Source of the DNA: Janthinobacterium sp. 344
Lineage (GTDB): Bacteria > Pseudomonadota > Gammaproteobacteria > Burkholderiales > Burkholderiaceae_D
Direction of reading: 5' to 3'
Length of the DNA stretch: 64,000 nucleotides
NCBI RefSeq assembly: GCF_900112025.1
Contig: NZ_FOKL01000002.1
Span: 520,339 to 584,338 of the forward strand
The notes under the pieces were generated by a model. That model was not told the origin of the DNA, did no database searches, and saw only the letters and a program-made list of their open reading frames with translations. The position numbers and the translations under genes are program-made. Below, one piece after another: positions 4,019 to 40,844 of the stretch (its first letter is position 1; each line of letters begins with the position of its first letter).

Positions 4019-4732
4019 TTAAAAGCGCTCGTCGCGCAGCGCCGGCATCACCAGTTCGCGCACGAAGGATACGTTCGACAGGCTCAGCAGCATGCGCACG
4101 ACGGCGACGACGTCATGCACGGGGATCAGCTCGCCCTCGCCCCGCGCGGCGGCGTCCGCCAGCGGCACGGACAAGCCGTCGTAGGTATTCAGATAGCCCA
4201 GTTGCAGCGCCGTCACGGCCAGTCCCTGTGCGCGGAAACTTTCGCGCAAGGCGTCGGCAATGCCGTTCAGGGCGAACTTCGAGGCGCTGAACGCCACTTC
4301 CGGGCGGCCGCTCTGGCGCAGGCCGGAAGTGGAGCCCGTCAGTATCAGCAGCGGCTTGGGGCTGGCCAGCAAGCGCGGCACGAGGCGCTTGAGCAGCAAT
4401 ATCGTGGCCGTGATGTTGATATTGATCATGTCGACGATGGCCTCGTCCCCATCGTCGAGGAAAGCGTAGTCATCGGTGAACGCCTTTTCTTCCCACACGC
4501 CCAGGTTGTAGATCAGCACGTCGAGGTCGGACGGCGCTTCGCGCGCGATCTGCTCGACCGCCGCCATGGGGTCGGCCATGTCCGCCGCGATCCACTGCAC
4601 GGCGGCACCATCGCCCGCATCGGCACCCGCAGGCCGCTGGCGCGACACGCCGACCAGCTCGTTCCCCTCGCTCAGCCCGTCGACGAGCGCGCGTCCCAGG
4701 CCCCGGCTGGCGCCCACGATCATGATTTTCAT
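4019..4732 (-). CDS. SDR family NAD(P)-dependent oxidoreductase-like protein, catalytic Tyr replaced
   Basis: 237 residues with a Rossmann fold: the cofactor motif GASRGLG is at residues 7-13 and the catalytic serine region ILTGSTSG is normal. The usual YxxxK active site reads FSASK, so phenylalanine (TTC codon) stands where the tyrosine general acid should be while the lysine is kept. It may be a poor or non-catalytic dehydrogenase or a binding protein. Substrate unknown; the gene stands alone, convergent with the preceding hypothetical. Confidence 0.8.
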   Translation of the reverse strand: MKIMIVGASRGLGRALVDGLSEGNELVGVSRQRPAGADAGDGAAVQWIAADMADPMAAVEQIAREAPSDLDVLIYNLGVWEEKAFTDDYAFLDDGDEAIVDMININITATILLLKRLVPRLLASPKPLLILTGSTSGLRQSGRPEVAFSASKFALNGIADALRESFRAQGLAVTALQLGYLNTYDGLSVPLADAAARGEGELIPVHDVVAVVRMLLSLSNVSFVRELVMPALRDERF

Positions 4733-4884
4733 GCGATGTCCTTTCCAATGAAGTCAACGCGGATGATAGCGGCGTTGTATTAAGCACAGCTGAGGCTGAT
4801 CCCCATACGCGCCGCGTTTACTCATACGGTGGAAATGCGTATGCTAGATCTGGCAATCTCCGATAACACACAAGAACGAGACAC

Positions 4885-6189
4885 ATGCCTACTTCCAACA
4901 CCGCCGCCAGCCACGCCGCAAGCCGTCCCCTCACCCAACAAGACTATAAAACCCTGTCGCTGGCCGCCCTCGGCGGCGCGCTGGAATTCTACGATTTCAT
5001 CATCTTCGTCTTCTTCGCCAACGCCATCGGCCAGTTGTTCTTCCCGCCGGAAATGCCTGAATGGCTGCGTCTGCTGCAAACCTTCGGCATCTTCGCCGCC
5101 GGCTACGTGGTGCGCCCGCTGGGCGGCATCGTCATGGCCCACTTCGGCGACTTGCTGGGCCGCAAGCGCATGTTCACCCTGTCCATCCTGATGATGGCCG
5201 TGCCGACCTTGCTGATCGGCCTGCTGCCCACCTATGCCACCATCGGCCTGGCGGCGCCATTGCTGCTGCTGCTGATGCGCATTTTCCAGGGCGCGGCCGT
5301 GGGCGGCGAGGTGCCGGGCGCCTGGGTCTTTGTGTCCGAACACGTGCCCAGCCGTTTTACGGGCTTCGCCTGCGGCGTGCTGACGGCGGGCCTGACGGTG
5401 GGCATTTTGCTCGGCTCGCTGGTGGCGACGGGCTTGAACACCGTCTATACGCCGGCGGAGATCAGCGACGGCGCCTGGCGCTACCCGTTCCTGCTGGGCG
5501 GCATCTTCGGCTTCGGCGCCATGTATCTGCGCCGCTGGCTGCATGAAACGCCCGTGTTCGCGGAAATGCAGCAGCGCAAGGCCCTGTCCACGGAAATGCC
5601 GCTGAAATCCGTGCTGCGCAGCCACCGCGGCGCCGTTGCCGTGTCGATGCTGCTGACCTGGATGCTGTCGGCCGGCATCGTCGTCGTCATTTTGATGACG
5701 CCCGCCCTGCTGCAAAAGATCCACCACATCGCGCCGCGCACCACGCTGGTGGCCAATACCGTGGCCACCCTGTGCCTGGCCTTCGGCTGCATCATCGCCG
5801 GCATGCTGGCCGACCGCCTGGGCGGCAAGCGCGTGATCTTCGTCGGCTCCGTGCTGCTGGCCATCAGTACGTATATCTTCTACACGACGATCGGCAGCCG
5901 CCCAGACCTGCTGCTGCCCCTGTACGCCATGACGGGCCTGTGCGTCGGCGTCGTCGGCGCCGTGCCCTACGTGCTGGTGCAGGCCTTCCCGGCCCAGGTG
6001 CGCTTTTCGGGACTGTCGTTTTCCTACAACTTGTCGTACGCGATTTTCGGCGGCCTGACGCCCGTGGTCGTGACCCTGATGCTGAAGAACAATGTGCTGG
6101 GTCCCGCCTATTACGTGATCGGCGTATGCATGGTCGGCATGCTGACGGCGCTGTTCATCAAGGATCAGCGGCGCACCGTGGGCCGTTAA
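4885..6189 (+). CDS. MFS transporter, metabolite:H+ symporter (MHS) type
   Basis: 434 residues with 12 predicted membrane segments. The sequence after helix 1 (ALEFYDFIIFVFF) and the loop 2-3 motif HFGDLLGRKRMF are typical of the MHS subfamily (ProP, ShiA, KgtP relatives), which import organic acids or osmolytes with protons. RIFQGAAVGGEVPGA in helix 4 also fits. Substrate cannot be told. Monocistronic: it is followed after 19 bp by a strong hairpin terminator. Confidence 0.88.
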   Translation: MPTSNTAASHAASRPLTQQDYKTLSLAALGGALEFYDFIIFVFFANAIGQLFFPPEMPEWLRLLQTFGIFAAGYVVRPLGGIVMAHFGDLLGRKRMFTLSILMMAVPTLLIGLLPTYATIGLAAPLLLLLMRIFQGAAVGGEVPGAWVFVSEHVPSRFTGFACGVLTAGLTVGILLGSLVATGLNTVYTPAEISDGAWRYPFLLGGIFGFGAMYLRRWLHETPVFAEMQQRKALSTEMPLKSVLRSHRGAVAVSMLLTWMLSAGIVVVILMTPALLQKIHHIAPRTTLVANTVATLCLAFGCIIAGMLADRLGGKRVIFVGSVLLAISTYIFYTTIGSRPDLLLPLYAMTGLCVGVVGAVPYVLVQAFPAQVRFSGLSFSYNLSYAIFGGLTPVVVTLMLKNNVLGPAYYVIGVCMVGMLTALFIKDQRRTVGR

Positions 6190-9972: not shown

Positions 9973-12021
9973 GTGCACCGTTCCCTGATCAGCGCCGCCT
10001 GCTGCGCCTTGCTCGCCTTATCGTCTCCGTCGCTGTACGCCCAGCAAGCCGCCAATGTGGCGGCCCCCGTCTCCGGCATCGACCTGAACACCCTCGACCC
10101 GGCCGTCAGCCCGAAAGAGGATTTCTATGGCTACGTCAACGGCGTCTGGACCCGCAATACGCAAATCCCGGCCGACAAATCCGTCTGGGGTACCTATATT
10201 GAATTGCGCGAAATCGCGCAAGGCCAGCTGCGCGGCCTGATCGACGCCACCCTGAAAAACCCGGGCAAGCCGGGCAGCGAAGCGCACAAGATCGCCGACC
10301 TGTACACCAGCTTCATGGATGAGAAGGCGCGCAATGCCGCCGGCTTCAAGCCCGTGAAAGCGGATCTGGCCCGCGTCGCCGCGCTCAAGGACAAGAAGGA
10401 CTTGCCGGCCCTGTTCGCCTACCTGCAAGGCAATGGCATCGCCACGCCGTTTTCCGCCTATGTCGCGCCCGATGCGCAAGACCCCGAGCGCTACACCATC
10501 AACATCAGCCAGTCCGGCCTGGGCCTGCCTGACCGCGACTACTACCTGAAGGACGACGACGCCAAGCTGCAAGCCGTGCGCGCCAAGTACCTGAAACACA
10601 TCGAAACCATGCTGGCCATGAGCGGCGACAAGCAGGCCGCCGACCATGCGGCGCAGATCCTCGACGTCGAGACGCGCCTGGCCGCCGTGCAATGGACGCG
10701 CGTGCAGATGCGCGATCCCGTGAAATCCTACAACCGCGTCGCCTTCGACCAGTTCGCCGCCATGGCGCCAGCATTCGACTGGAAAGCCTACTTTGCCGCC
10801 GCCGGCATGGCCAAGAAGGAAACCTCGGCCGTCGTGCGCCAGCCCAGCTTTATGACAGGCTTCTCCGAAACCGTGGCCGCCGTGCCGCTGGAAGCGTGGA
10901 AGAGCTACCTGAACTGGCGCGTCATCGAAAGCTATGCCTCCTTCCTCGACAGCGCCGCCGTCAAGGAGCGCTTCGCCTTCGAAGGCACGGTGCTGCGCGG
11001 CGTGCCGCAAAGCGAACCGCAATGGCAGCTGGCCCTGCGCTTCACGGACGGCGCCCTGGCCGATGCCGTCGGCAAGCGCTACGTGGAAATGTATCTGCCG
11101 CCGGAAACCAAGCCGCGCGTGATGGCCATGTTCGACAACTTCGTCGCCTCGTTCAAGGATGGCATCGAGCAACTGGACTGGATGGGCCCGGAAACCAAGA
11201 AGGAAGCCCAGCTCAAGCTGGCGGCCCTGAAACCGAAGATCGCCTACCCGGACAAATGGCGCGACTACAGCAGCATGACAACGCAGCCGCACGATCTGAT
11301 CGCCAACGTGCGCGCGTCGCGCGTCTGGAGCCAGCGGCAAAACCTGGCCAAGCTGGGCAAGCCGGTCGACCGCGACGAATGGTCGATGACGCCGCAAACC
11401 GTCAACGCCAGCTACAGCCCGTCGCTCAACGCGATCACGATTCCGGCCGCCATCCTGCAGCCGCCATTCTTCAACGTCAAAGCGGAAGACGCCGTCAACT
11501 ACGGCTTGTTGGGTATCACCTTCGGCCATGAAATCAGCCACGCCTTCGACGACTCGGGCAGCCAGTACGACGCCAAGGGCCGCCTGCGCAACTGGTGGAC
11601 GGCAGAAGACCGCGCCGCCTTCAAGGCGCTGGCCGCCGGCCTCGTCAAGCAATACGGCGCCTACAGCCCCGTGCCCGGCTACCATATCAATGGCGAGCTG
11701 ACCCTGGGCGAGAACATCGGCGACAACTCCGGCCTGTCGATCACCTATAAGGCGTACCAGCGTTCGCTGCATGGCAAGCCATCGCCCGTGCTCGACGGCC
11801 TGACGGGCGAACAGCGCCTGTACATCGGTTTCGCGCAGAAATGGCGCGCCAAGCTGCGTCCGGAGGCGGCGATTGCGCAAATCAAGAGCGATCCGCATTC
11901 GCCGGGCGAGTTCCGCGCGAAAGGCACCGTGAAGAACCAGCCGGGATTTTATGAGGCGTTTGACATCAAGCCGGGCGACGCCATGTATCTGGCGCCGGAG
12001 CAGCGCGTGATCATGTGGTAA
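9973..12021 (+). CDS. M13 family zinc metallopeptidase (neprilysin/PepO-like)
   Basis: 682 residues with a signal peptide (about residues 1-23, ending SLYAQ), so the enzyme acts in the periplasm or outside. The zinc site HEISH is at residues 519-523 and the third ligand is in ENIGD near residue 580; NAxY-type substrate binding text (NASYSPSLNAITIPAAIL) precedes it. The M13 family degrades peptides. A GTG start is used, preceded by AAAGGAA. The C-terminal end, lacking a CxxW box but ending in AMYLAPEQRVIMW, matches bacterial members in length. Confidence 0.93.
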   Translation: MHRSLISAACCALLALSSPSLYAQQAANVAAPVSGIDLNTLDPAVSPKEDFYGYVNGVWTRNTQIPADKSVWGTYIELREIAQGQLRGLIDATLKNPGKPGSEAHKIADLYTSFMDEKARNAAGFKPVKADLARVAALKDKKDLPALFAYLQGNGIATPFSAYVAPDAQDPERYTINISQSGLGLPDRDYYLKDDDAKLQAVRAKYLKHIETMLAMSGDKQAADHAAQILDVETRLAAVQWTRVQMRDPVKSYNRVAFDQFAAMAPAFDWKAYFAAAGMAKKETSAVVRQPSFMTGFSETVAAVPLEAWKSYLNWRVIESYASFLDSAAVKERFAFEGTVLRGVPQSEPQWQLALRFTDGALADAVGKRYVEMYLPPETKPRVMAMFDNFVASFKDGIEQLDWMGPETKKEAQLKLAALKPKIAYPDKWRDYSSMTTQPHDLIANVRASRVWSQRQNLAKLGKPVDRDEWSMTPQTVNASYSPSLNAITIPAAILQPPFFNVKAEDAVNYGLLGITFGHEISHAFDDSGSQYDAKGRLRNWWTAEDRAAFKALAAGLVKQYGAYSPVPGYHINGELTLGENIGDNSGLSITYKAYQRSLHGKPSPVLDGLTGEQRLYIGFAQKWRAKLRPEAAIAQIKSDPHSPGEFRAKGTVKNQPGFYEAFDIKPGDAMYLAPEQRVIMW

Positions 12022-29635: not shown

Positions 29636-30005
29636 TCACACGACAACGGATCGACACGGCGACGGGGCAAGCTCTGCGGCATCCGCAGTCACCGCAGCGC
29701 TGCCGCTGACATTTTTTGCGGCAAGGTGGAGGAAGACGGCGCAGGAATGGCAGATCCGGCCAGGCTGTGCACCCGGACTGCTGCGCTCGACGCAGGGGCG
29801 CCGTAGTAGCCCGTTCAGTCGGAAAGAGAACCAAGATCGCGCACCCGCGGTGCACGAGGCTGCCGCGCCGTGGTAGCAGTTGGGTGATACGGAAAGGGCG
29901 ACTTCCTCAGGCACGGCCCTTTCGGATCTTCGGATGCCCGGGCACGGCCGGCAGGGGGCGTGATTCTCTCTGGGAAGAAACGGGAAATGGGGGCCGAAGG
30001 GTGGG
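29636..30005. other. Gap between the catabolic cluster and the integrative element
   Basis: 370 bp without a credible gene. A 154-codon open frame on the minus strand has poor composition and no ribosome site. One copy of a stem-loop repeat (see 29836-29903) is the only structure I recognise. Confidence 0.5.
29836..29903. repeat. Stem-loop repeat, copy A
   Basis: From GGCTGCCGCGC onwards, 31 of 40 bases match a second copy at 36246-36312. GCTGCC/GGTAGC can pair (one G-U), and the same stem is perfect in copy B (GCTGCC/GGCAGC). The conservation of pairing despite base change suggests a selected hairpin. Confidence 0.5.
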
Positions 30006-30021
30006 GAGAGGGGGATTCGAA
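30006..30021 (+). repeat. Left attachment-site repeat (attL-like copy of the tRNA-Ser 3' end)
   Basis: GAGAGGGGGATTCGAA is identical to 40761-40776 inside tRNA-Ser(GGA), in the same orientation. The flanking GTGG is also shared, with a 3-bp indel. Confidence 0.65.
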
Positions 30022-30149
30022 TCATAGCTGGTAAAGCGCATGGGTGGCTGATTTCGACGGATGGTAGATTAAAGAATCCCCCCAACGATGCCCTTACCAA
30101 AAAGTTTCCTACCTACACCATGAATTAATGCAACAAAACATATCCATTC

Positions 30150-30204
30150 GAGCTAAGGATTGAAAATCCTTGTGTCGGTGGTTCGATTCCGCTCCGGGCC
30201 GCCA
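30150..30204 (+). pseudogene. Truncated tRNA-Phe(GAA), 3' 55 nt only
   Basis: Begins in the D-stem (GAGC), continues with the anticodon arm AAGGA-TTGAAAA-TCCTT (anticodon GAA), T arm GGTGG-TTCGATT-CCGCT, acceptor strand CCGGGCC, discriminator G and encoded CCA. The 5' acceptor strand and D-arm are missing, so it cannot be a working tRNA. It is followed by a terminator and is typical of a recombination scar of an element that uses tRNA-Phe. Confidence 0.8.
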
Positions 30205-30249: not shown

Positions 30250-30539
30250 GTTTGTCGAACACAAAGTCCTGGTGTCCGGTTGATTTCCGGCCAGTCTCCA
30301 GACTCAATTTACCCAATCGTCCAACGCCCCTCCATACCCCTGTTACCGTTGCCGAGCAATTTCGTCCGACAGAATTGTCCAAGCGTCCACGTGCCGATTC
30401 CCGTAGTCAAAAAGTAACGTCAATTCTTACCTACTTGAAATTTACGACATAGATAGTTAGTGTTGATTTTTCAACTTCCTCGTGGCAACATGAAGTCAAC
30501 ACGCTACGATCGTCGAACGTCAATTTGCTAGGAGAAGTC

Positions 30540-31865
30540 ATGTCAGCGCTGGTCCCGAAACCCCCTGCACCAATTTTGCCAGCACTTCCAGCGACAATCC
30601 TCCCCTCCCTCTCATCGTTGACGGCTGCCCTTGGGATTCCTCGAACTGTACTAGCAAGTGATGAAGAAATTCAATATGCGTGGAACGATCTGCCGCGTGA
30701 ACTACGAGAGATTCCCCCTGCTTTACGAGGGGAACTAGTTGCCCGAATGTGTGTGGCAGTAAGTACTGGTTTATTTGACGGAGCAATGAACTATATCTGG
30801 AATGCAGCCATCTTGCAGTTACGAACAAAAGTTCGCAACTTTGGGTTGCCTATAGTTGCACAAATTCAACAAATGGATTTCGAGGAAAAGCATTTGCTGG
30901 AACTGCAGGACAGCCGCCTGTTAGATCTTTGCCTCAAGTTAAATTTGGTCGATGAGGACGGATTTTTCTTTCTTGATCAATGTCGAGACGTGCGCAACAA
31001 CTTTTCTGCTGCGCATCCGACCATTGGTACTATAAATGATCGCGAATTCACTACCTTTTTGAATAGATGCGTTCGCTACGCCCTCGCTGATGCTGCGTCG
31101 CCAAAAGGTGTTGATATTGGCGCCTTTATTTCCGCCGTAAAGGGAGCGAGATTTAATGAGAATCAAAAAATAATTTGGGTACAACGTCTTTCTGAGACGC
31201 ATGATGCGCAGCGTCAGATGCTAACCGGAATGGCATATGGAATCTACTGCGACTCCAACACATCCGAACCGTCCAGACTGAACGCACTAGATATCTGCAA
31301 TGCTCTCAAAGATCGTTTTACCGCCTCGCTTCGCTCTGATCTCATTAACAAGCACAGCGAATATGCTGCAAAAGGCGATGAACCGCGTCATACAGCATCA
31401 TTACAGTTTTTCGAAAAACTGGGACTGTTGACATTACTGAATGAATCCGAGCAGCATGTCGTATTTTATCGAGCAGTTGAGCGCCTATGGAATGTCCATA
31501 ATGCAACGAACAACTTTTACAATGAGCCACCTTTTGCAGAACGATTATTAGAGTTATCGCGTCAAGGCGCTATACCAGAAACAGTGCAAGAGCAATTTGT
31601 TCAAGTTGTTGTCTGCTGCAACATCGGCAATCAGTACGGTGTCTGTTGGGCTGCTTCGCCAAATTATGAGCAAATAATCAGGGCGTTTTCCCCAAGGGAA
31701 ATTGCGACAATGATACGGCTCGCCTCGCTACCAAATACTACCCTTGGTCAACGAGTAATGTCCTTTGCAAAATGCAGAGAGCGATTTAAAGCAACATTGG
31801 CCCTTATTGATCCTGCAAGTGTTCCTAGCGGTTTTAAAGCAGCATATGACCAATTTCTCAGATAG
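30540..31865 (+). CDS. HEPN-motif protein of unknown function
   Basis: 441 residues, not assigned to a named family. At residues 152-159 the text RNNFSAAH fits the HEPN ribonuclease signature (R-N followed by four to six residues and H), preceded by helix-rich sequence as in HEPN domains. The rest is helical with conserved-looking Cys/Trp patches. AGGAGA 5 bp before ATG 30540 sets the start; a TTG 15 bp upstream lies in that site. Lower GC than the chromosome and a location inside the element suggest a cargo gene, possibly antiphage or toxin-like (inference). Confidence 0.7.
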   Translation: MSALVPKPPAPILPALPATILPSLSSLTAALGIPRTVLASDEEIQYAWNDLPRELREIPPALRGELVARMCVAVSTGLFDGAMNYIWNAAILQLRTKVRNFGLPIVAQIQQMDFEEKHLLELQDSRLLDLCLKLNLVDEDGFFFLDQCRDVRNNFSAAHPTIGTINDREFTTFLNRCVRYALADAASPKGVDIGAFISAVKGARFNENQKIIWVQRLSETHDAQRQMLTGMAYGIYCDSNTSEPSRLNALDICNALKDRFTASLRSDLINKHSEYAAKGDEPRHTASLQFFEKLGLLTLLNESEQHVVFYRAVERLWNVHNATNNFYNEPPFAERLLELSRQGAIPETVQEQFVQVVVCCNIGNQYGVCWAASPNYEQIIRAFSPREIATMIRLASLPNTTLGQRVMSFAKCRERFKATLALIDPASVPSGFKAAYDQFLR

Positions 31866-32120
31866 CGCTTCGAGACTACATACAACCCGTATGTTAGCTA
31901 GCTTTATGCTTCGACGAAAGTCGTATACCTTCATGGGCTCGTTAAGGAAAGACTGATGAAGCAGCAACCGGGTAACCGAAAAGGAAACAAAGACCAAACT
32001 AACCCCAACATAACCCCGAAAATTTAATCAAAGAGTGGGTCAGAACTCGATGCAAATTCCGGGGCAGAATACAGTGCAATCTAACAACGACATTGGGCAA
32101 GCCTTTGGCGGCCATTACCG
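31866..32120. other. Convergent gap between HEPN gene and PIN operon
   Basis: 255 bp, AT-richer than the chromosome. No gene, no strong hairpin; repeated CCCC/AACCCC words only. Confidence 0.4.
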
Positions 32121-32741
32121 TCACTTCAACGACTTGCGCCGAACATGCCGTCTTAAGCTTGGACAGGCATCCACTTTCTCACTGCCGATAAGGCTGGACA
32201 CCCAATCGAACTGACAATCTCGAACCTGCATTCTCGCAAAGCGCAGTGCATCGAACGTCGCATCGGCAAGTTTTCCCGCTCCGAGCGCAGCTTGTACACG
32301 CTCATGCGCCAAGATGTCGATTGTAGTTACAAGTTTCAGCGCAGGAAATCGTTCAGCAGCAATCCGAGTAGCCTTTTTCTCATCAATTGCAGCAATGAAT
32401 CCAAATCCATCCGCTAGTGCAAGCGTCGCGGCCTCGCCGTCGCCGAGCGAGTTCGATGCATCACCCGACACCAGCCCGAAGAACGTCGCAAGAGCTGGCC
32501 CGTCGATAGTTTCCAATCGCAATATCTGATCGTTTATTGCCTTTGTCAACAAGCCAAATTCCGGACGACCTGCCGCCGCACCTTGCTCTATCTCCCGAAC
32601 AACACTATCGGTGACGAGCAACGGCACATTTAATGATTTGAGGATGGCATCGGATTGCCCAGTCACAAGTAGGTTGATCACGACGCTGGCATCAAGCACA
32701 AGCACTGAGCCTTGGTCAGTGAGATAATTTGAAAAGATCAT
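32121..32741 (-). CDS. PIN-domain nuclease-like protein
   Basis: 206 residues. The acidic PIN positions are all visible: D17 (VLVLDASVVINLL), E50 (SVVREIEQG), D101/E103 (LGDGEAATLALA) and D120 (AAIDEKKA), so a metal-dependent RNase fold is likely. It is the last gene of a four-gene operon and overlaps the XRE-ImmA gene by 26 bp. The ATG at 32741 is preferred to 32750 because GAGGAGG lies 9 bp before it. XRE-ImmA/PIN pairs are a known toxin-antitoxin-like arrangement; here they carry two extra genes. Confidence 0.82.
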   Translation of the reverse strand: MIFSNYLTDQGSVLVLDASVVINLLVTGQSDAILKSLNVPLLVTDSVVREIEQGAAAGRPEFGLLTKAINDQILRLETIDGPALATFFGLVSGDASNSLGDGEAATLALADGFGFIAAIDEKKATRIAAERFPALKLVTTIDILAHERVQAALGAGKLADATFDALRFARMQVRDCQFDWVSSLIGSEKVDACPSLRRHVRRKSLK

Positions 32742-33885
32742 CAACCTCATCCTCCTCAGCCTCGTCTAGCAACTCGCGCACTTTTTCTCGACCTATCTTC
32801 AACATTTCCGACATCTGACCTTCGCTTATAAAATCCTTCTTCCACGCCTCAATCGCCAGTAAAAAGAGACGCGACGACTGCGCTACGTCAGGATCGGGCA
32901 TTTCATCTGCGGAGGTTCCTAAAACCTGTTGGACTTGTTCGTCAGTGATTCCGCCGTTGTCCATGAACCAATCCCAAGTGCCTTTCTTCGTGAGTCCGAG
33001 GTCTTCCAAGCGCAGCACCATGGCCTGACGAGAGACTCCAAAAAAACTTGATAGCAAGATGATGTGACGACGAGTGAGATGAGTTCCACCAGTCGTTATT
33101 TCTTTAAATTTCTCCATTACTGCGCGAGTAGGAGTTAAGAATGCGCTTCCAAAAGCATTTGCATAGCGCTCCTCTCGTGAATTCTCATACTTCCCGTCCT
33201 GATAGATTTCTGGTTGCCTACGAGTAGCGATAAAATGGCCAAGTTCGTGCCCACCAGTTTGAGTTCGCCGGTCCTTCCGGTGGCTCGCATTAATAAGAAT
33301 GCAGGCGCCAACATTGTCATCATAGGCAAATAGTCCAGCAACTTTTGAATCAAGTTTTCGACTGTAAACCCGGACTCCTAGTTGAAGTTCAAGGATAGAA
33401 AATATGCTCTGGATCGGCCCTTCACCCAACCCTAACCAGTTGCGCAAATTCTGCGCGTCGTGCTCCGCCTGCTTGCGAACATCTCCTGGTAACAGGTTCA
33501 TTTCTGCTGGATAATTGTACGTTTTTTTGACGCCTAGAATATTCTCAAGCTCAACTTCGGCGCGGACGAGATCGTTCAGCAGCCGCGCAGCTTGCTCAAT
33601 GCCACTGTCACCAGTTTCCGGCAATGAGCGGAATCGTGGTACAAGATCGACGAAGACCGACTCTCGGCGCAGCAACGAGTTGATTGACACGCCATAAAGG
33701 CGGCTAAGCGCCTGGATTTCTTCGAGCCTCGCGGCGCGTTGTCCCTTCTCGATAGAAACAAGAGTAGTCCTTGCGATAAGGGCAGCCTTCGCTGCAATAT
33801 CTTGGGTAACATTCGCAGTTTCTCGCGCAACCTTTAGTCGCTCACCCAGCTGCACTGGGCTCAATTCAAAATCTGATTTGCTCAT
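32716..33885 (-). CDS. XRE regulator with ImmA/IrrE (COG2856) metallopeptidase domain
   Basis: 389 residues. An XRE helix-turn-helix lies at residues about 10-70 (LGERLKVARETANVTQDIAAKA) and a zinc peptidase domain follows with HELGH at 213-217 and the third acidic ligand in the helix NAFGSAFLTP. Such proteins repress their operon and release repression by proteolysis (ImmA, IrrE, DdrO-type logic). A 31-bp palindrome over the operon promoter is the likely site of this protein. Its ATG overlaps the QueC-like stop by 4 bp. Confidence 0.9.
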   Translation of the reverse strand: MSKSDFELSPVQLGERLKVARETANVTQDIAAKAALIARTTLVSIEKGQRAARLEEIQALSRLYGVSINSLLRRESVFVDLVPRFRSLPETGDSGIEQAARLLNDLVRAEVELENILGVKKTYNYPAEMNLLPGDVRKQAEHDAQNLRNWLGLGEGPIQSIFSILELQLGVRVYSRKLDSKVAGLFAYDDNVGACILINASHRKDRRTQTGGHELGHFIATRRQPEIYQDGKYENSREERYANAFGSAFLTPTRAVMEKFKEITTGGTHLTRRHIILLSSFFGVSRQAMVLRLEDLGLTKKGTWDWFMDNGGITDEQVQQVLGTSADEMPDPDVAQSSRLFLLAIEAWKKDFISEGQMSEMLKIGREKVRELLDEAEEDEVDDLFKLSH

Positions 33886-35255
33886 GATCTATTACCTATC
33901 CATTTCCGAACAAACGACTCTCGGCCAAGAGCGTCTTTAAATGCATACCATTCCAACGTATGCTGCTCCAGCATTCGGTCTAGACGCTGCGCAATAACTT
34001 GGGAATCCTCTGCCAGTGAGCGCGCTAGTTCGCCCGTGTGCCGGCGCTTGAAGAGTTCATACTCCATCGATTTTCTAATTAGGGCCAGATGTTCAAAATG
34101 AAGTACCCCAGCAATGGCATATTCACGTAAGGAGGTGGTTAAGCGCTTGAAATCTTTCGATGCGCCTTCCTCCCAAGTGGGAGCCTGCAGCGACTCCCAT
34201 ACATAAGTTTCTGGTGGTTCTTGTAACCCAGCTGCGTGAACGCTAAGCCGCCGAAGGACGCACGCCGCGCAAATACCGCATTGCCTTTGCGCCCCGGAAA
34301 CACCCACCTGCCTAGACTGCTGCCAGCACGATCTAGTCTTGATCCATTTCGCGCCGTCAGAACAATTGTTTGCAAACTCACGCAACGTCTCGGCTTTCGT
34401 CGTCCAAAGGCGAGGGAATTTGTACCGAATTTGATGCGCGAGGAGCACCTTTATAAACCGTTCCATTAGCACGGTAAAAACAGGGTGACTTCGATAGTCC
34501 TCATATCCTTGTCCAACGGGAAGAAATGCAGGTCCTATCGCGCCTTGCCCACTTTCCGGGACAATTATTTCGTGGGCGTCAATAAGATACGCCGCCATTG
34601 CAGACACAACGCTGAACTTGAACCCACGGCTCCGAGCGCTACTCTCCGCATTTCTTCCCCCATTGATACTCACAGAGTAGGGAATTGCTGCAAATGGCGC
34701 TTGCCTACGCTCCTTCAGCGGTACATCTTGCTGCTTATTACCAACTCTCACGCGTATTAGGCGCTGACCAAGCCGCTTACGCTCAAGCCCATCGACAGCA
34801 CGCGAATCCATCCCATCGCTAAATGCAATAACAGCCTCTGCATTGGAAGGAAACTCCATACGGAACTGTGCTGGTGGCTGCGCACTTACTTTGCGAGCCC
34901 GAAATTCGAAATGCCAGTCGTCTCCAGTTAGGAGATTCAGCGCCTGAACCAGTGCCGCAACAACGGACTTATCGGACCATCGGAAAGGCTCATGAACAGG
35001 GACGTGAACAACGAATCGTCGCCCCCAATTCATCGAACTACGGGACAAGCTACGATCACAGAACTCAACAACGGCAGCAACAACAAGGGCATCAAAGACA
35101 ACTGGTTGCCATTTCAACGACGAGAAGGATTCAAGAGCCGCGATATCGAACTTAATATTCTGCCCCAAGCGGCATGCAACTGCCCCCTTGCGTCGCCGCT
35201 CTTCCGGTTCGACTACATGAACAGTCAGTTCTTTCAGCGGAAGTAAGTTTGTCAT
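33882..35255 (-). CDS. QueC-like PP-loop ATPase protein
   Basis: 457 residues. The PP-loop reads AFSDGMDSRAV (residues 144-154), the pyrophosphatase motif of QueC/tRNA-thiolation enzymes. Four cysteines, C310 and C326-x2-C329-x2-C332 (CGICAACVLRR), match the QueC zinc site. True QueC (about 230 residues) makes preQ0 for queuosine; this enzyme is twice as long with an N-terminal extension and lies in a mobile element without queC/D/E partners. QueC-like proteins occur in the Qat and type IV CBASS defence systems; a similar role is inferred. ATGA overlaps on both sides. Confidence 0.82.
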   Translation of the reverse strand: MTNLLPLKELTVHVVEPEERRRKGAVACRLGQNIKFDIAALESFSSLKWQPVVFDALVVAAVVEFCDRSLSRSSMNWGRRFVVHVPVHEPFRWSDKSVVAALVQALNLLTGDDWHFEFRARKVSAQPPAQFRMEFPSNAEAVIAFSDGMDSRAVDGLERKRLGQRLIRVRVGNKQQDVPLKERRQAPFAAIPYSVSINGGRNAESSARSRGFKFSVVSAMAAYLIDAHEIIVPESGQGAIGPAFLPVGQGYEDYRSHPVFTVLMERFIKVLLAHQIRYKFPRLWTTKAETLREFANNCSDGAKWIKTRSCWQQSRQVGVSGAQRQCGICAACVLRRLSVHAAGLQEPPETYVWESLQAPTWEEGASKDFKRLTTSLREYAIAGVLHFEHLALIRKSMEYELFKRRHTGELARSLAEDSQVIAQRLDRMLEQHTLEWYAFKDALGRESFVRKWIGNRS

Positions 35256-35821
35256 AGTGGAACTCCTTCATCCAGGCTAGTGCTTTTCTTCAATCGGCTG
35301 GATCGAGTTAGCTGACGGTCAAGAAGCATAGATCCAAGGCTACTTTCTGATAATCCGCTGATTGCACTGTTTAAGCGTGCAGCAACGCCTTCCGCGCGAT
35401 GTTGGTTAGTTTCACGGAGCACATGCTCTTGAATAGAACGGGTGTTTGCAAACCCACGAGCTTTAGCGGCGAGGCCAATGGCGTCATAGACTGCTTTGGG
35501 TTCCAAGCGCCCCTCATTGACGAGTTGAATACTCCATTCAACGGCATTGCTCCCAAACACAGAACCGGCAGCTAATGACCGCAACTCTGAGAGTTGCTGA
35601 ATGGCGATTTCGGGGATCATAAGAGAATTATCAAGCCCAGCGAAAATTGACTTCAGGGCACTGATCAACGACCAGGAAACCTCATTCTTGAAATCGCTGG
35701 CGAGTGCGCTAGTTGCCGCCTCTGCCACTTGCTCAGAATCATAGGTAGATTGATCTCCGCGCTTTGCCAGTTCCTTCCATGGTTTTCGCATTGGCAGACT
35801 TCTATGTGGTCCATCGCTCAT
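35252..35821 (-). CDS. Unknown 189-residue protein, first gene of the QueC-like/ImmA/PIN operon
   Basis: Helix-rich, no recognised family, no signal peptide. The start MSDGPHRSLPMRKPWKELAKRG is preceded by AGGGAGG 7 bp upstream. Its stop overlaps the QueC-like start by 4 bp (ATGA), so the two products are probably made in fixed ratio and may interact. I considered QatB and found no similarity by eye. Confidence 0.65.
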   Translation of the reverse strand: MSDGPHRSLPMRKPWKELAKRGDQSTYDSEQVAEAATSALASDFKNEVSWSLISALKSIFAGLDNSLMIPEIAIQQLSELRSLAAGSVFGSNAVEWSIQLVNEGRLEPKAVYDAIGLAAKARGFANTRSIQEHVLRETNQHRAEGVAARLNSAISGLSESSLGSMLLDRQLTRSSRLKKSTSLDEGVPL

Positions 35822-36379: not shown

Positions 36380-36580
36380 TCAAGCGATTCCACGCCTAGC
36401 GTCAATACAGCGCTGCTGCCATTCGGCAATTTCGGCTGCGTCCCAGGCGACAGACTTGGGGCCGATGGGAATCGGTGCTGGCAACACACCCGCCTTCACC
36501 TTGCGCCAGATTGTGGCGCGCGACCAGCCGGTGGCCTCAATTACCGCAGGCAAGCGGAGGAATTTTTTAGTCGTGGTCAT
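36380..36580 (-). CDS. AlpA-family DNA-binding protein
   Basis: 66 residues: FLRLPAVIEATGWSRATIWR is the MerR-like helix-turn-helix of AlpA proteins, which switch on integrase/excision genes of P4-like and other elements. GGAG lies 7 bp before ATG 36580; an in-frame ATG upstream is not supported. Located between the operon and the second recombinase, same strand. Confidence 0.88.
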   Translation of the reverse strand: MTTTKKFLRLPAVIEATGWSRATIWRKVKAGVLPAPIPIGPKSVAWDAAEIAEWQQRCIDARRGIA

Positions 36581-36716
36581 AAGATTCTCCTTCGATTGAT
36601 GAACAGCAAACAATGGAGAGTCATGCCGACTCTCCGCGATAATTCCGGTAGCTCCAGCGCTGCCCCTTCTGCATCTCTTCTATTCCATGCGCTACGCCCC
36701 TGATAAAAGTGGGCGG

Positions 36717-37583
36717 TCATCTGCCCAGATAGATGGACGTGACCTGTTCACGGCCATGTCCCATCTCCGTCGAAATCTTTAACCTTGCAGCGTTATCCGC
36801 CAACTTTTGTGAAGCATCCAGCTGTCTGGACGTCGGGCCGCCACTGGCTGAGCAAGGTCGGCCAATCAACTCGGCATAGCGCCGCTGCGCGTACTCATGG
36901 CGTAGCCCATGCACGCCATGGATGCCAGCCTTGTCGCACTGCGCACGAAAGCGGTTCAACTGGTCCCGATACCGCAACTGCGCCGGAATCAAGCTGCCTT
37001 TTCCCGCCAGCGCCTTGGCCGCCTCCAGCACGGCGCGCTGATGCATGCTGGCAATCGGCACCTCCCGGTATTTGCCACCCTTGGTCCAGCTATCCTGCAG
37101 CCGCAGGATGTTCCCGCCATCGGCCCATCCCGGCTTGATCTTGATGCTTTCCTCGCGCCGCAAACCAAACGCCGCCTGCAGCTGCAGCGACATGCGCGTA
37201 TACGGATCGTTCACGCGGGCCAGCGTGTCGGCGTCCAGCACCTTCGCCTTCGAAACATTGGTGACAAACACCCGCTCCGCGATGCCGTATTCGCCGTTGG
37301 TGCGCGCAATGATGTTCTCCTTGCCGATCTTCTCGGCCCACCAGCGCAGGGCGCTCATGCGATTCTTGATGGTTCCAGTACTGACGCCATCCTGCTTCCA
37401 CTTATCGAGCAGCGCCGCCACATGCTTCGGTTTCAGACTGTCCACGCTCATATGCTGGAAGCCCCGTTCCGCCAGGTCGTTGGCGCACAGGTTTAATAAG
37501 CGCTCGCGGTCGGCCTGCGTCGCAAAGCTGCCATCCCGGTTGCGGTGACACAGTTGCTTGAGCTGGTAGTTCAAGTCGCGCAT
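36717..37583 (-). CDS. Tyrosine recombinase, integrase-domain (Integrase_1-like) type
   Basis: 288 residues. A SAM-like N-terminal DNA-binding part (LKPKHVAALLDKWKQDGVSTGTIKNRMSALRWW) precedes the catalytic domain: Arg in FGLRREESIKI, H-x-x-R in HGLRHEYAQ, a C-terminal histidine in MGHGREQ and the nucleophile tyrosine in TSIYLGR at the end. Different family from the P4-type integrase at the right end; probably works on another site or left from an older element. ATG 37583 chosen; a GTG at 37616 would add 11 residues. The gene starts 119 bp downstream of the hairpin-rich tract. Confidence 0.85.
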   Translation of the reverse strand: MRDLNYQLKQLCHRNRDGSFATQADRERLLNLCANDLAERGFQHMSVDSLKPKHVAALLDKWKQDGVSTGTIKNRMSALRWWAEKIGKENIIARTNGEYGIAERVFVTNVSKAKVLDADTLARVNDPYTRMSLQLQAAFGLRREESIKIKPGWADGGNILRLQDSWTKGGKYREVPIASMHQRAVLEAAKALAGKGSLIPAQLRYRDQLNRFRAQCDKAGIHGVHGLRHEYAQRRYAELIGRPCSASGGPTSRQLDASQKLADNAARLKISTEMGHGREQVTSIYLGR

Positions 37584-37701
37584 GGCAAAGTCATCCCTTC
37601 GATCTTTGGTTTTCACATCGATGCCGCGTGGTGTAATCCTGTCTGGTAAGTGTTTCTGGCCACCCTCACTGCCTCGGCAGAAAAGGTTGAATCAAGGGCC
37701 T

Positions 37702-38478
37702 CGGGACACCACTCCCGTGTATGCGGTTGCTGTTACTGCCTGCCCGCGCCGCATGCGCGTGTGGCACCGCTGCGCGCTCCCGGAGGAAGCTGCCGCAGCG
37801 GGGACCAATCACCCAGGGTCCATGGAGTGCACATCGTGCACGGATCAACTTCTACGAATCAGCCCGTAGCGGGCGAAGGAAATCGCAGGGCTTGCCTGCG
37901 ATGCGGGGCGCCTGGCCCCGTCACTGAACAACATCACGCGGTGGAATTCCGCTTGCCGCCAGGGCCTATGCCGTCGGCGGCGCGTCGTCACTGGCAGCAC
38001 GCCGCCAGTAACGACGCGCGCACGCAGCCATGGCATGCGACGGCATACAAGCCAGCATCGCACTCGCGGTGACGATACTGGCGACTCTGGAGCACATGCG
38101 CTGGCGGCAGCCGCGATGGCATCGCATCGCTGGCATTTCTGCTGACGGTGCGGCTTGCGGTAGAGCCATGCTGTGCTTCATACGGTGCGCTACCTCGCGG
38201 GCATGCGAACCAATCGGGGCAGGAGTCTTGCTCCTGTTTGAGGAAGCGCCCATCGGGCGCAATCGTCCAGGCAATCCGTCTTGCGGATTGTGGGATATGA
38301 AGACGCTGAAGGCAGCGCTTTATCGTGCCGAGATGTGCATGCTTCTGCATGGCCCGGCGATCTGTCTAGCAAAAACTGCTAAGTATCATGGTGGCGGGTG
38401 ACGACCGCAACGCCTATGCCGCTAAGCATAGGGACATGCTCGATGCATGCCCTCGTGGGAGCGATTCCCACATAAGAG
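37702..38478 (-). ncRNA. Candidate large structured RNA (hairpin-packed, gene-free tract)
   Basis: No frame on either strand looks coding, yet perfect hairpins follow one another. Those of six or more base pairs: 37767-37801 (8 bp), 37827-37841 (6), 37882-37902 (8), 37904-37920 (6), 37955-37981 (6, with an inner GGC-CTAT-GCC), 37982-38017 (7+6 with one C-A mismatch), 38220-38236 (6), 38246-38260 (6), 38272-38290 (7), 38413-38432 (7), 38455-38471 (6). Five-bp ones fill much of the rest (37702, 37745, 37862, 38304, 38338, 38367). On the minus strand several loops are CAAGA, CAAGA, CAAGC, CAGGC or GAT. A promoter lies at its right edge. Large mobile-element RNAs such as GOLLD and ROOL are a precedent; identity unknown. 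Confidence 0.45.
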
Positions 38479-38484
38479 AGCTTC

Positions 38485-38512
38485 ATTCTATGCCTGATAT
38501 CGACGTTTGCAA
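38485..38512 (-). promoter_or_regulatory. Putative promoter of the structured RNA
   Basis: On the minus strand TTGCAA (38507-38512) and TAGAAT (38485-38490) are 16 bp apart. A start near 38478 would place the first hairpin (38455-38471) at the RNA 5' end. Confidence 0.45.
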
Positions 38513-38580
38513 GCGGTTCGTTTCGTCAAGTGCGCTTTTCGTAGTACGCAGAATTGGAACCCGGTCAAAGACTCCGATAG

Positions 38581-39219
38581 CTACTGCATGTTGTCGCCCT
38601 GGCGACGTACCCGCCTCCTTGACTCCTTCATCGCACTAACCAATTGGTCCATGCTCATACCGTTACGTAAATAACTGGCAGCGAGCGCCGTCGCGACACC
38701 CTCCAGCTGACGGGAGACGACCTGCAAACCAGCCTGTTCAATTTGCCGAATGGCTGCTTGCTGGATACTGTGCTGTGCTTCACTGATGGAAATCCGCTGC
38801 AATGCCGGAAATAAGGCGGTTTCGAGGTGACGGATAGCGAGCAGGGTCGCCCGCCGAATACTGGTCTGCACATGGCCCCACTCCGGCTCATCGAATATTT
38901 CGTCGATTGGAATAGGCTTTGGCAGTGGATGCAATTTTTCTCGATTGAATTCTGTGTGCGGGTCCTGCTGCTGCTCCAGCAGCTGATGCGCTGCAAGCCT
39001 GTGTTCTCTCGCTTTGGCAATGGAAACTTCAGGGTACCGGCCAAAAGTCAGAACGCTTTCGCCACCGCTTTGCTGGAGATACTTCATGCGCCAGACCTTG
39101 CTGCCGCTGGGCTGCACTGCGATGTACAGACCAGCCCCATCGAATAGTTTGTATATTTTGTCCTTCGGAGCAGCTTGCTTGATAAGCTCATCCGTGAGGC
39201 GCAATACATACTTAGACAT
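38581..39219 (-). CDS. Stand-alone DUF4102 (integrase arm-binding domain) protein
   Basis: 212 residues. Residues 1-85 (MSKYVLRLTDELIKQAAPKDKIYKLFDGAGLYIAVQPSGSK split over positions 1-41) are the arm-type DNA-binding domain of P4-like integrases. The remaining 125 residues are helical and lack the catalytic R/H/R/Y domain. AGGAGGG is 5 bp before ATG 39219, and the gene overlaps the real integrase stop by 8 bp, so it is expressed with it. It may bind the same arm sites and modulate recombination (inference). Confidence 0.8.
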   Translation of the reverse strand: MSKYVLRLTDELIKQAAPKDKIYKLFDGAGLYIAVQPSGSKVWRMKYLQQSGGESVLTFGRYPEVSIAKAREHRLAAHQLLEQQQDPHTEFNREKLHPLPKPIPIDEIFDEPEWGHVQTSIRRATLLAIRHLETALFPALQRISISEAQHSIQQAAIRQIEQAGLQVVSRQLEGVATALAASYLRNGMSMDQLVSAMKESRRRVRRQGDNMQ

Positions 39220-40522
39220 GGTGCCCTCCTGTTCCGCCATCCCGGCTGAATTCGCCACTGACCAGCGTTAATCTTGGCGTCTGCGGCGGCGCTCCCTTGC
39301 CGCTGACGGCATCGATATAGTCGGCCCAATCCTGCATCATCCGGCGCCGCTCCGCCAGGAACTGGGCGCGGTCATAGGCGCTGGCCACCTTATCCTTCGG
39401 TGCATGTGCCAGCTGCCGGTCCACGACTTCATGCCGGTAGCCCAGGCGCTCCTTGATGGTGCTCATGGCCAGCGCCCGGAAGCCATGGCCGGTCATCTTG
39501 CCCTTGTATCCCATGCGTCCAAGCGCCACCAGTATCGTGTTATTGCTGATCGGCTTTTCGTGGTCGCGCTGATTCGGGAACAGGTACTTGCTGCGGCCCG
39601 TGATCGCGTGCAGTTCGCGCAGCAGCTCCAGCGCCTGGCGCGACAGACATACGTGATGGTTGGTCATATCCGGATTGACGGTCAGCTTGCCGCGCTTCAT
39701 GCGCTGCCATGGAATGATCCACTCGCCGCGCTCCAGGTCAATTTCACTCCAGGGCGTTTCAATCAACTCGCTGGTACGCACAAAGCACAGCAGCATCAGC
39801 CGCAGCGCAATGCGGGTCGGCGCGAACATACGTGCTTCGTTGCGGTCCAGAATGGCCAGGAACTGCGGTAGCTCGTCGGCGTTGATGGCGGCGAAGTGTC
39901 CGACGCGGACGGTCTTCAGCACATCCTTCATATCGGTGACCAGATTGCGCTCTGTGAATCCGCACTGAATCGCGTAGCTGAAAATTGACGCACATACCGC
40001 TCTCTGGCGATGGGCGACCTCGCTTGCGCCGCGCTCCTCGATCTTGCGCAGTGCGGCGATCACATCGAGGTGCTTGAGTTCATCGATGGGCTTGCGGCCA
40101 ATGGCAGGAAAGATATCTGCCTCCAGCCGTTGCAGGACGTTCTTGGCGGTGCGCTCGCTCCAGGTCGGAACCCTGTTGGCATGCCACTCGCGGGCGATTT
40201 TTTCAAAAGTATTGGCGGCGCGCTCTTTCAACAGTCGTTTGGCGTCGTCGCGATGCTTGGCCGGGTCGATCCCTTGCAGCATCAGGCGCCGCGCTGCCAA
40301 GCGCTTTTCACGCGCATCCTGCAACGTAATTTCCGGATAAGGACCAAACGTCAGTGCGTTCTCCTTGCCGTTGGCCTGGCGAAATTTCCAGCGCCAGATG
40401 CGAGACCCGCTCGGCATGACTTCTACGAACAGGCCGCCGCCGTCGGATAACTTGTATGGTTTATCCTTTGGTTTGGCGTTTTTGACCTGAAGTTCGGACA
40501 GCGGTACGATGAGCTTTGCCAT
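39212..40522 (-). CDS. P4-type tyrosine integrase
   Basis: 436 residues. DUF4102 arm-binding domain at residues 1-90 (AKLIVPLSELQVKNAKPKDK, GGLFVEVMPSGSRIWRWKF), core-binding domain, then the catalytic domain with Arg (FVRTSELIETPW), H-x-x-R (HGFRALAMST), His (QLAHAPKDKV) and Tyr (ASAYDRAQFL). GGAGG precedes ATG 40522. Adjacent to the 3' end of tRNA-Ser(GGA), its evident integration target. Confidence 0.95.
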   Translation of the reverse strand: MAKLIVPLSELQVKNAKPKDKPYKLSDGGGLFVEVMPSGSRIWRWKFRQANGKENALTFGPYPEITLQDAREKRLAARRLMLQGIDPAKHRDDAKRLLKERAANTFEKIAREWHANRVPTWSERTAKNVLQRLEADIFPAIGRKPIDELKHLDVIAALRKIEERGASEVAHRQRAVCASIFSYAIQCGFTERNLVTDMKDVLKTVRVGHFAAINADELPQFLAILDRNEARMFAPTRIALRLMLLCFVRTSELIETPWSEIDLERGEWIIPWQRMKRGKLTVNPDMTNHHVCLSRQALELLRELHAITGRSKYLFPNQRDHEKPISNNTILVALGRMGYKGKMTGHGFRALAMSTIKERLGYRHEVVDRQLAHAPKDKVASAYDRAQFLAERRRMMQDWADYIDAVSGKGAPPQTPRLTLVSGEFSRDGGTGGHHV

Positions 40523-40673
40523 GGTAGCCTCCTTCGCAAATGCGTCTGAAACCACTATAGGACAGTTATGCGGGAATGGTAGTCAAGGATGGGGGAATCC
40601 GGCCCGGCGCTTTCCCTCAAAAAAGTTAGACGTACTGAAACGTCTTGGCACATTTCGAGACGCCGAAAAACGA

Positions 40674-40753: not shown

Positions 40754-40844
40754 TGGCGGAGAGAGGGGGATTCGAACCCCCGATAGGCTATGAACCTATA
40801 CACGCTTTCCAGGCGTGCGACTTCAACCACTCATCCACCTCTCC
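40754..40844 (-). tRNA. tRNA-Ser(GGA)
   Basis: 91 nt with encoded CCA. Acceptor GGAGAGG pairs with CTCTCC plus G; the anticodon loop CTGGAAA (anticodon GGA) closes on CGCACGC/GCGTG; a long variable arm and T arm GGGGGTTCGAATCCCCC are present, as in type II tRNAs. It is intact and is the integration site of the element. Confidence 0.96.

Follow-up and report, generated by a model that had tools for sequence, protein, structure and literature searches.

The closest described system to the locus reported here is the mobilization module of Salmonella genomic island 1 (SGI1). Its MpsA protein is tyrosine-recombinase-like, is needed for transfer, and is proposed to be the relaxase acting at a 125-bp origin of transfer (oriT) rich in inverted repeats (PMC6414798); mpsB is described as essential as well. 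Transfer of SGI1 also requires an RNA, sgm-sRNA, which is directed toward mpsA from promoter P5 (TTGACG-16-TAATAT). The transcript is 650-700 nt long, its functional core lies between oriT and mpsA, outside oriT, and it acts in trans; expression of MpsAB is no substitute for it, SGI1 plasmids without mpsAB can be served in trans, and the describing paper leaves open in what way the RNA helps transfer (PMC9299015). Here we analyze a 64,000-nt stretch of Janthinobacterium sp. 344 (contig NZ_FOKL01000002.1, positions 520,339 to 584,338 of the forward strand; the window), in which a hairpin-rich tract at 37702-38478 adjoins an mpsA-like gene. We consider it probable that this tract is an oriT plus a structured mobilization RNA. 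On this reading it forms the non-coding part of a module for conjugative mobilization, carried by an integrative mobilizable element.

GOLLD and ROOL are long structured RNAs of mobile elements, and the IS110-type bridge RNA is a programmable guide with variable target-binding loops. MobK of pIGRK and TcpM of pCW3 are tyrosine-recombinase-like relaxases, the same kind of enzyme as proposed for the window protein; unlike the window, they come with no RNA in the portions of the two accounts used here (PMC8152469, PMC12857230).

Results

Hairpin density and the conserved RNA domain

The tract had been singled out by an original prediction, made from the sequence alone, as packed with hairpins, and this density was borne out. 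Ten perfect stems of at least 6 bp with loops of 3-10 nt were counted, compared with 2.34 ± 1.48 in 300 dinucleotide shuffles (shuffle maximum 8); the earlier count of eleven stems of 6-8 bp had included one with a mismatch, and its chance figure of about one 6-bp stem was too low. With arms of at least 5 bp, 21 stems were found against 8.3 ± 2.8 in the shuffles (maximum 17); numbers for arms of at least 7 bp (3) and at least 8 bp (1) were not above the shuffle maxima of 4 and 2. By stem density the tract is the top 777-bp stretch of the window, with 10 stems against at most 8 elsewhere and a mean of 2.7. Folding was more stable than that of shuffled sequence on both strands (z -4.47 on the plus and -6.67 on the minus strand), and none of 20 shuffles equalled either strand. 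The recurring minus-strand loops could be read in the listed stems (CAAGA twice, CAAGC, CAGGC, and GAT twice).

Alignments of homologues revealed covariation beyond that of shuffled and slid controls in a 194-nt domain at the 3′ end of the predicted transcript (Table 1). In alignment A2 (28 sequences, mostly Betaproteobacterial, with L070, L079, L099/L101/L114 (partial or divergent) and near-duplicates left out), nine helices including one pseudoknot had 89.4% of their cells paired and 130 double-change cells, compared with 46.9 in shuffled controls, and covariation was 0.295, where shuffled controls gave 0.126 and slid ones no more than 0.090. Alignment A3 covers the 3′ core in 42 Beta- and Gammaproteobacterial sequences, taken from the 53 non-redundant ones of 72 regions with motif and hairpin among 91 upstream regions after oddly long, cut or N-holding ones were dropped. 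Here, 101 double-change cells were found against 32.7, and covariation reached 0.356, where shuffling gave 0.131 and sliding no more than 0.148; in a structure-fitted alignment of 88 distinct rows the value was 0.460 against 0.153. The pseudoknot helix, tested alone, was 96.4% paired with 25 double changes against 6.1 in shuffled controls. A second pseudoknot candidate, in which a GGTG loop pairs with CACC at the 3′ end, was 96.4% paired yet nearly invariant, and for this reason gives evidence neither way. On the mpsA-sense strand, G-U cells exceeded A-C cells by 32:17 and 32:12 in MAFFT alignments, as is expected of an RNA from that strand. These counts omit columns with poor pairing as well as H2 and the candidate 3′ pseudoknot, and are uncorrected for relatedness.

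Conservation points to the same domain. In 12 same-genus relatives, which are 92-98% identical over the region, the RNA domain is 98.8% and the oriT-like hairpin 99.2% identical, and the adjoining stretch of mpsA (37500-37616) is less conserved than both, at 97.4%. The motif AACACTNACC or CACTTACC is present in 77 of the 91 upstream regions and in none of 14 control loci with ordinary Integrase_1 genes. A TCACT..AGTGA hairpin is present in 44 of the 91 and likewise in none of the 14 controls, and hairpins of this type made up 43 of 87 longest stems in a survey of the upstream regions; the arm of the window itself is TTACT and lies outside the 44. The promoter-like sequence noted in the original prediction lies at 38512-38485 on the minus strand, and is kept in 8 aligned relatives with single variants TTGAAA (L064) and TAAAAT (L009), from which a transcription start near 38478 would follow.

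The description of the tract as gene-free held in most respects. None of its six mechanical open reading frames (ORFs) has a Pfam match at E ≤ 0.1 and all 22 indels counted among the same-genus relatives break the frame, and a protein-coding tract was rejected on these grounds. One overlapping ORF (37582-37869, plus strand) does remain open in 11 of the 12 relatives, from which little follows because the relatives are so similar and the ORF overlaps mpsA and RNA-domain sequence. The idea of a large structured RNA in a mobile element gains support from the covariation, the G-U excess, the minus-strand folding and the conserved promoter-like sequence, but the likeness to GOLLD and ROOL is not sustained: the tract reaches the gathering score of no Rfam family, and its RNA, unlike theirs, is linked to a relaxase-like gene. 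A permissive Rfam scan of 36500-39300 (E ≤ 5) gave three weak matches only, to other families, the best at E 0.12. A bridge RNA of IS110 type was also considered and rejected, since the loop GTGGTG and the motif AACACTTACC vary little across hosts. No DNA homologues of the tract were found on plasmids.

Comparison with SGI1

For the comparison we used L146 (OR851053.1), a 3,144-base record filed as Salmonella phage S.Kent 1-2-1, which carries the exact SGI1 P5 promoter and mobilization region and is probably SGI1 mobilization sequence, not phage; it was also the single phage record with a homologue of the mpsA-like protein. A DNA search of E. coli genomes with two queries did not find SGI1. 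Two published landmarks fix the SGI1 map, mobSGI1 position c being L146 position 2794-c. The longest SGI1 hairpin (12 bp, L146 1110-1147) falls within the mapped oriT, and the motif TTTCACTTACC at 1459-1469 coincides with the mapped 3′ border of the functional RNA. Deletion pMNI36, which ends transfer, covers 1466-1499, that is, half of CACTTACC (1462-1469) and 30 bp beyond, and pMNI71, which stops at 1500, leaves transfer working.

In order and direction the window follows the SGI1 layout, which runs from the promoter through the oriT hairpin and the RNA core to CACTTACC and mpsA, the series in the window being TTGCAA-16-TAGAAT (38512-38485), the hairpin at 37980-38019, the RNA domain, AAACACTTACCAGA (37655-37642) and the mpsA-like gene. 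The promoter layout is alike, the predicted transcript of about 0.85 kb is similar in length to that of SGI1, and both modules have a protein of tyrosine-recombinase type. The hairpin arms are TTACTGG/CCAGTGA in the window and GTCTCTGT/ACAGAGAC in SGI1. Pairing of the CACTTACC motif with an oriT arm is unsupported, because the arm varies (TCACT in many, TCCCT in the L091 type, TCTCT in SGI1) and the motif is constant.

Taken together, the window module most likely works like that of SGI1, membership not being demonstrated. The hairpin at 37980-38019 would be oriT or its core, and transcription of the same DNA would start near 38478 and head for the mpsA-like gene. Toward its 3′ end the RNA would fold into the conserved pseudoknotted domain (37630-37823), which would act like sgm-sRNA. 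The MpsA-like protein would bind and nick oriT and, with the RNA, form a transfer complex or hand it over to the type IV secretion system that a conjugative helper provides. The evidence from the present locus consists of conservation, covariation, position and association with mpsA-like genes, and oriT function and the need for MpsA and the RNA in trans come from SGI1 only; transcription, the oriT role, and a role of the RNA as relaxase partner and not regulator are what we infer for the window.

Association of the RNA with mpsA-like genes

Eighty loci, the best 80 of at least 490 mpsA-like relatives in a collection with one genome per species, have upstream regions that align over the RNA domain. 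The covariance model R1 was built from A3 and includes 41 of these loci. It matched the window once in 64 kb (37630-37723, minus strand) and, at E ≤ 0.01, 79 of the 80 loci, the figure including the 41 that trained it; L132, with 323 bases upstream, was unmatched. In a mixed test set, R1 matched 36 of 60 sources at E ≤ 0.01, three of the matching sources (L019, L023 and L052) being the same place. Unmatched at this level were 12 ordinary Integrase_1 loci (0 of 12 matching even at E ≤ 1), SGI1 and pAeme4, five viral loci, of which two had no sequence upstream, L132, and four plasmids (pSIO1, pAS78-3, a Pseudolysobacter plasmid and a Salmonella plasmid). In a small unfiltered search the Pseudolysobacter and Salmonella plasmids reached E 0.03 and 0.02, respectively, and Shewanella and Shinella plasmids matched at E 2e-4.

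When genomes were searched with the RNA only, 16 copies were found in 8 of 195 family genomes (window included), of which 12 adjoin an mpsA-like gene, one adjoins a remnant, and three neither. Among 369 class genomes, the window's own being one, 26 copies besides that of the window were found in 12 of the 368 others; 20 of them neighbour an mpsA-like gene or what is left of one (in one case a match of 24 residues, in another at a distance of 330 bp), and six have none within 1.5 kb. Copies that hold a row of the model letter for letter numbered 5 of 16 and 3 of 26, and with these excluded mpsA or a remnant adjoins 8 of 11 family and 17 of 23 class copies. Of the nine lone copies, six retain the oriT-like hairpin and seven are in genomes with mpsA elsewhere, as expected if oriT and RNA were served in trans in the way that SGI1 plasmids without mpsAB are. 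Two genomes of the class search hold multiple copies (seven in G468, three of them without mpsA nearby, and five in G312), and in one Salmonella plasmid stretch, L058, the CACTTACC motif occurs twice in succession (4724-4834 and 4887-4986) ahead of one mpsA-like gene.

These distributions bear on the idea that the RNA domain is a cis-regulatory leader, the 5′ part of the mpsA mRNA that controls its expression. The domain is directly ahead of the gene in many copies, and many Gammaproteobacterial loci have the motif 22-27 nt before the aligned start codon, as a leader would. However, mpsA is missing within 1.5 kb of nine copies, the motif lies at anything from 22 to 216 nt before the aligned start, and farther away in two loci, and the SGI1 RNA acts in trans with no replacement by MpsAB expression, so that we regard a leader as unlikely.

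The MpsA-like protein

The tract had been described as lying between two recombinase genes. A gene stands on each side of it, and the neighbour at 37616-36717 falls in a clade near SGI1 MpsA. In a tree of 41 rows, the 24-row clade of the window protein is supported at 96/95. Residues R153, K179, H236, R239, H240, H287 and Y296 are invariant in 11 of 11 aligned rows. Relatives, close and distant, were found on 205 plasmid records, of which 130 were typed non-mobilizable, 50 conjugative and 25 mobilizable. Twelve plasmid records with such genes were fetched, a non-random sample, and ten were typed non-mobilizable, two of these ten also carrying a MobA/MobL gene.

The invariant catalytic residues, the long palindromes adjoining the gene and the small plasmids among its hosts would fit a true site-specific recombinase, acting in plasmid resolution or in integron-like hairpin recombination with the hairpins as its target. 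Such a recombinase leaves unexplained the covariation and G-U excess in a separate domain of 190 nt and the genetics of SGI1, and the island already has a tRNA-linked integrase; we consider it very unlikely. Least probable is a purely DNA-level structure, an extended oriT whose helices act in the transferred single strand without functional RNA: oriTs are rich in inverted repeats and the tract is hairpin-rich on both strands, but the minus-strand excess of G-U over A-C, the conserved promoter-like sequence and the SGI1 domain, which acts as RNA beside mpsA and outside oriT, speak against it.

Several observations weigh against the proposed oriT and mobilization RNA and have to be set beside the evidence for it. 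With 31% identity to SGI1 MpsA, the window protein is about as distant from it as from an ordinary Integrase_1 control (28%), its grouping with SGI1 and pAeme4 is weakly supported (81/53), and with intact catalytic residues it could still be a recombinase. Unlike SGI1, the window has no mpsB-like ORF in the 136-bp gap directly downstream of the mpsA-like gene. R1 has no match to the SGI1 RNA beyond a partial one of 14 nt (E 5.8), so that the case for homology with sgm-sRNA is built on position, promoter and a short motif. It also has no significant match in pAeme4, pSIO1, an Acinetobacter plasmid and two Pasteurellaceae plasmids, and for two lone copies (G485) no mpsA was found anywhere in the genome. 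G-U cells are only modestly in excess. For the 5′ half, a predicted fold had 110 broken against 1 doubly changed of 3192 cells within the genus, and compensatory changes there could not be judged from within-genus data.

Rfam families at related loci

No match in the window was found with the models of EFASI (RF02957), STAXI (RF01728) and PAGEV (RF03037). An Rfam scan of other loci gave STAXI and EFASI in L058 and PAGEV in L054, and tRNAs only in 16 further loci. In L058, one mpsA-like gene has an oriT-like hairpin with STAXI 5′ of it. A second gene, Integrase_1-like, is preceded at about 100 bp by EFASI, together with a TCACT/AGTGA hairpin, and a STAXI stands on the far side of EFASI (STAXI/EFASI coordinates 4287-4429, 10054-10183 and 10405-10531). 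EFASI is an RNA of Enterobacteriaceae. Its Rfam text mentions STAXI and integrases in the vicinity and gives the function as unknown (PMC12370729). The arrangement suggests that EFASI may be the counterpart of the window RNA; the EFASI-associated protein is only 25% identical and on a long branch. The PAGEV RNA (L054:348-565) is on pSIO1, a plasmid of 4.9 kb that also has an mpsA-like gene and a coupling-protein gene. Among the papers listed by searches of the open literature, none dealt with such an RNA outside SGI1-family elements, a weak negative given that subscription papers and preprints were outside the scope of these searches.

The surrounding element

On our reading, the tract belongs to an integrative mobilizable element that is inserted at tRNA-Ser and about 10.75 kb long (Table 1). 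Six genomes of the genus lack the tract (G002, G004, G021, G024, G027 and G033); in them the left flank, 68-73% identical to the window, is 49-57 bp from the tRNA match, compared with 10.78 kb here. No secretion-system genes were found among the nine island ORFs scanned or read.

Table 1. Positions of the features in the window, with the basis of each assignment
Feature	Position	Strand	Basis or remark
Promoter-like sequence of putative RNA	38485..38512	-	-35 TTGCAA 38512-38507, 16 bp, -10 TAGAAT 38490-38485
Predicted primary transcript, ~0.85 kb, toward mpsA-like gene	37630..38478	-	Minus-strand fold z -6.67; both ends predicted
Long hairpin GCGCGTCGTTACTGG...CCAGTGACGACGCGC, candidate oriT core	37980..38019		Position 5′ of RNA domain, likeness to SGI1
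Conserved RNA domain (sgm-sRNA-like core), 194 nt	37630..37823	-	28-sequence alignment A2, pair counts
Hairpin H1, GGACC-(10-nt loop)-GGTCC	37802..37821	-	Pair counts
Variable stem H2	37767..37801	-	64.3% of cells paired on MAFFT alignment, weakest helix
H-type pseudoknot: stem GCC..GGC 37742-37765, its loop ATGCGG pairing with CCGCAT 37721-37726	37721..37765	-	Helix tested alone
Hairpin CGGGA-GTGGTG-TCCCG, loop strongly conserved	37702..37717	-	Alignments, pair counts
Hairpin H7, covarying stem, inside helix H6 (GGCC/GGCC in the window)	37663..37686	-	Pair counts
Unpaired conserved motif AAACACTTACCAGA near 3′ end of RNA domain	37642..37655	-	Conservation in upstream regions
MpsA-like tyrosine-recombinase-family protein (Phage_int_SAM_2 + Integrase_1), candidate relaxase	36717..37616	-	Start GTG 37616 or ATG 37583; tract directly 5′
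AlpA-like protein, 66 aa, downstream of mpsA-like gene	36380..36580	-	After 136-bp gap
Arm-DNA-bind_3 protein, 225 aa, no catalytic domain match	38581..39258	-	Domain scan
Tyrosine integrase of the island	39212..40555	-	Domain scan
tRNA-Ser(GGA), integration site	40754..40844	-	tRNA call, empty sites in relatives
22-nt near-repeat of tRNA-Ser 3′ end (40755-40776, 90.9%), candidate far island end	30000..30021	+	20/22 nt, E 0.002 within the window
QatC-like cargo gene, candidate anti-phage defence	33882..35255	-	118.8 bits, below NCBIfam cut-off 280

The protein downstream of the mpsA-like gene we take to be AlpA-like from its sequence, recognised by eye. The 225-aa protein shares 37% identity with roughly the first 217 residues of the integrase next to it, and its start overlaps the integrase end. 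The island cargo at 30525-35821 comprises the QatC-like gene, helix-turn-helix plus ImmA/IrrE-like and PDC-S70-like genes and two unassigned genes, and is a candidate for defence. The sequence at about 30136-30190 (plus strand), where ARAGORN calls no tRNA, resembles by eye a tRNA lacking its 5′ half, with anticodon arm, T arm and acceptor; it is possibly the end of another island.

Discussion

The tyrosine-recombinase-type relaxases on plasmids and islands of Beta-, Gamma- and probably Alphaproteobacteria might form a general class of RNA-dependent transfer systems, with a ribonucleoprotein relaxosome whose cofactor is a pseudoknotted RNA. In this tentative picture, to which we give somewhat less than an even chance, sgm-sRNA of SGI1 would count as a divergent member, as might EFASI together with STAXI, and units of oriT and RNA without a relaxase gene would be satellites.

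The trio of oriT-like hairpin, structured RNA and mpsA-like gene recurs in mobile elements of many bacteria. This suggests that DNA transfer assisted by an RNA may extend beyond the single case in print, and some plasmids typed as non-mobilizable may carry a transfer module that typing misses. For the orphan Rfam families EFASI and STAXI, the results point toward a function. With a deep covarying family that has a pseudoknot, a conserved loop and a single-stranded motif, the question raised by sgm-sRNA becomes testable outside a drug-resistance island.
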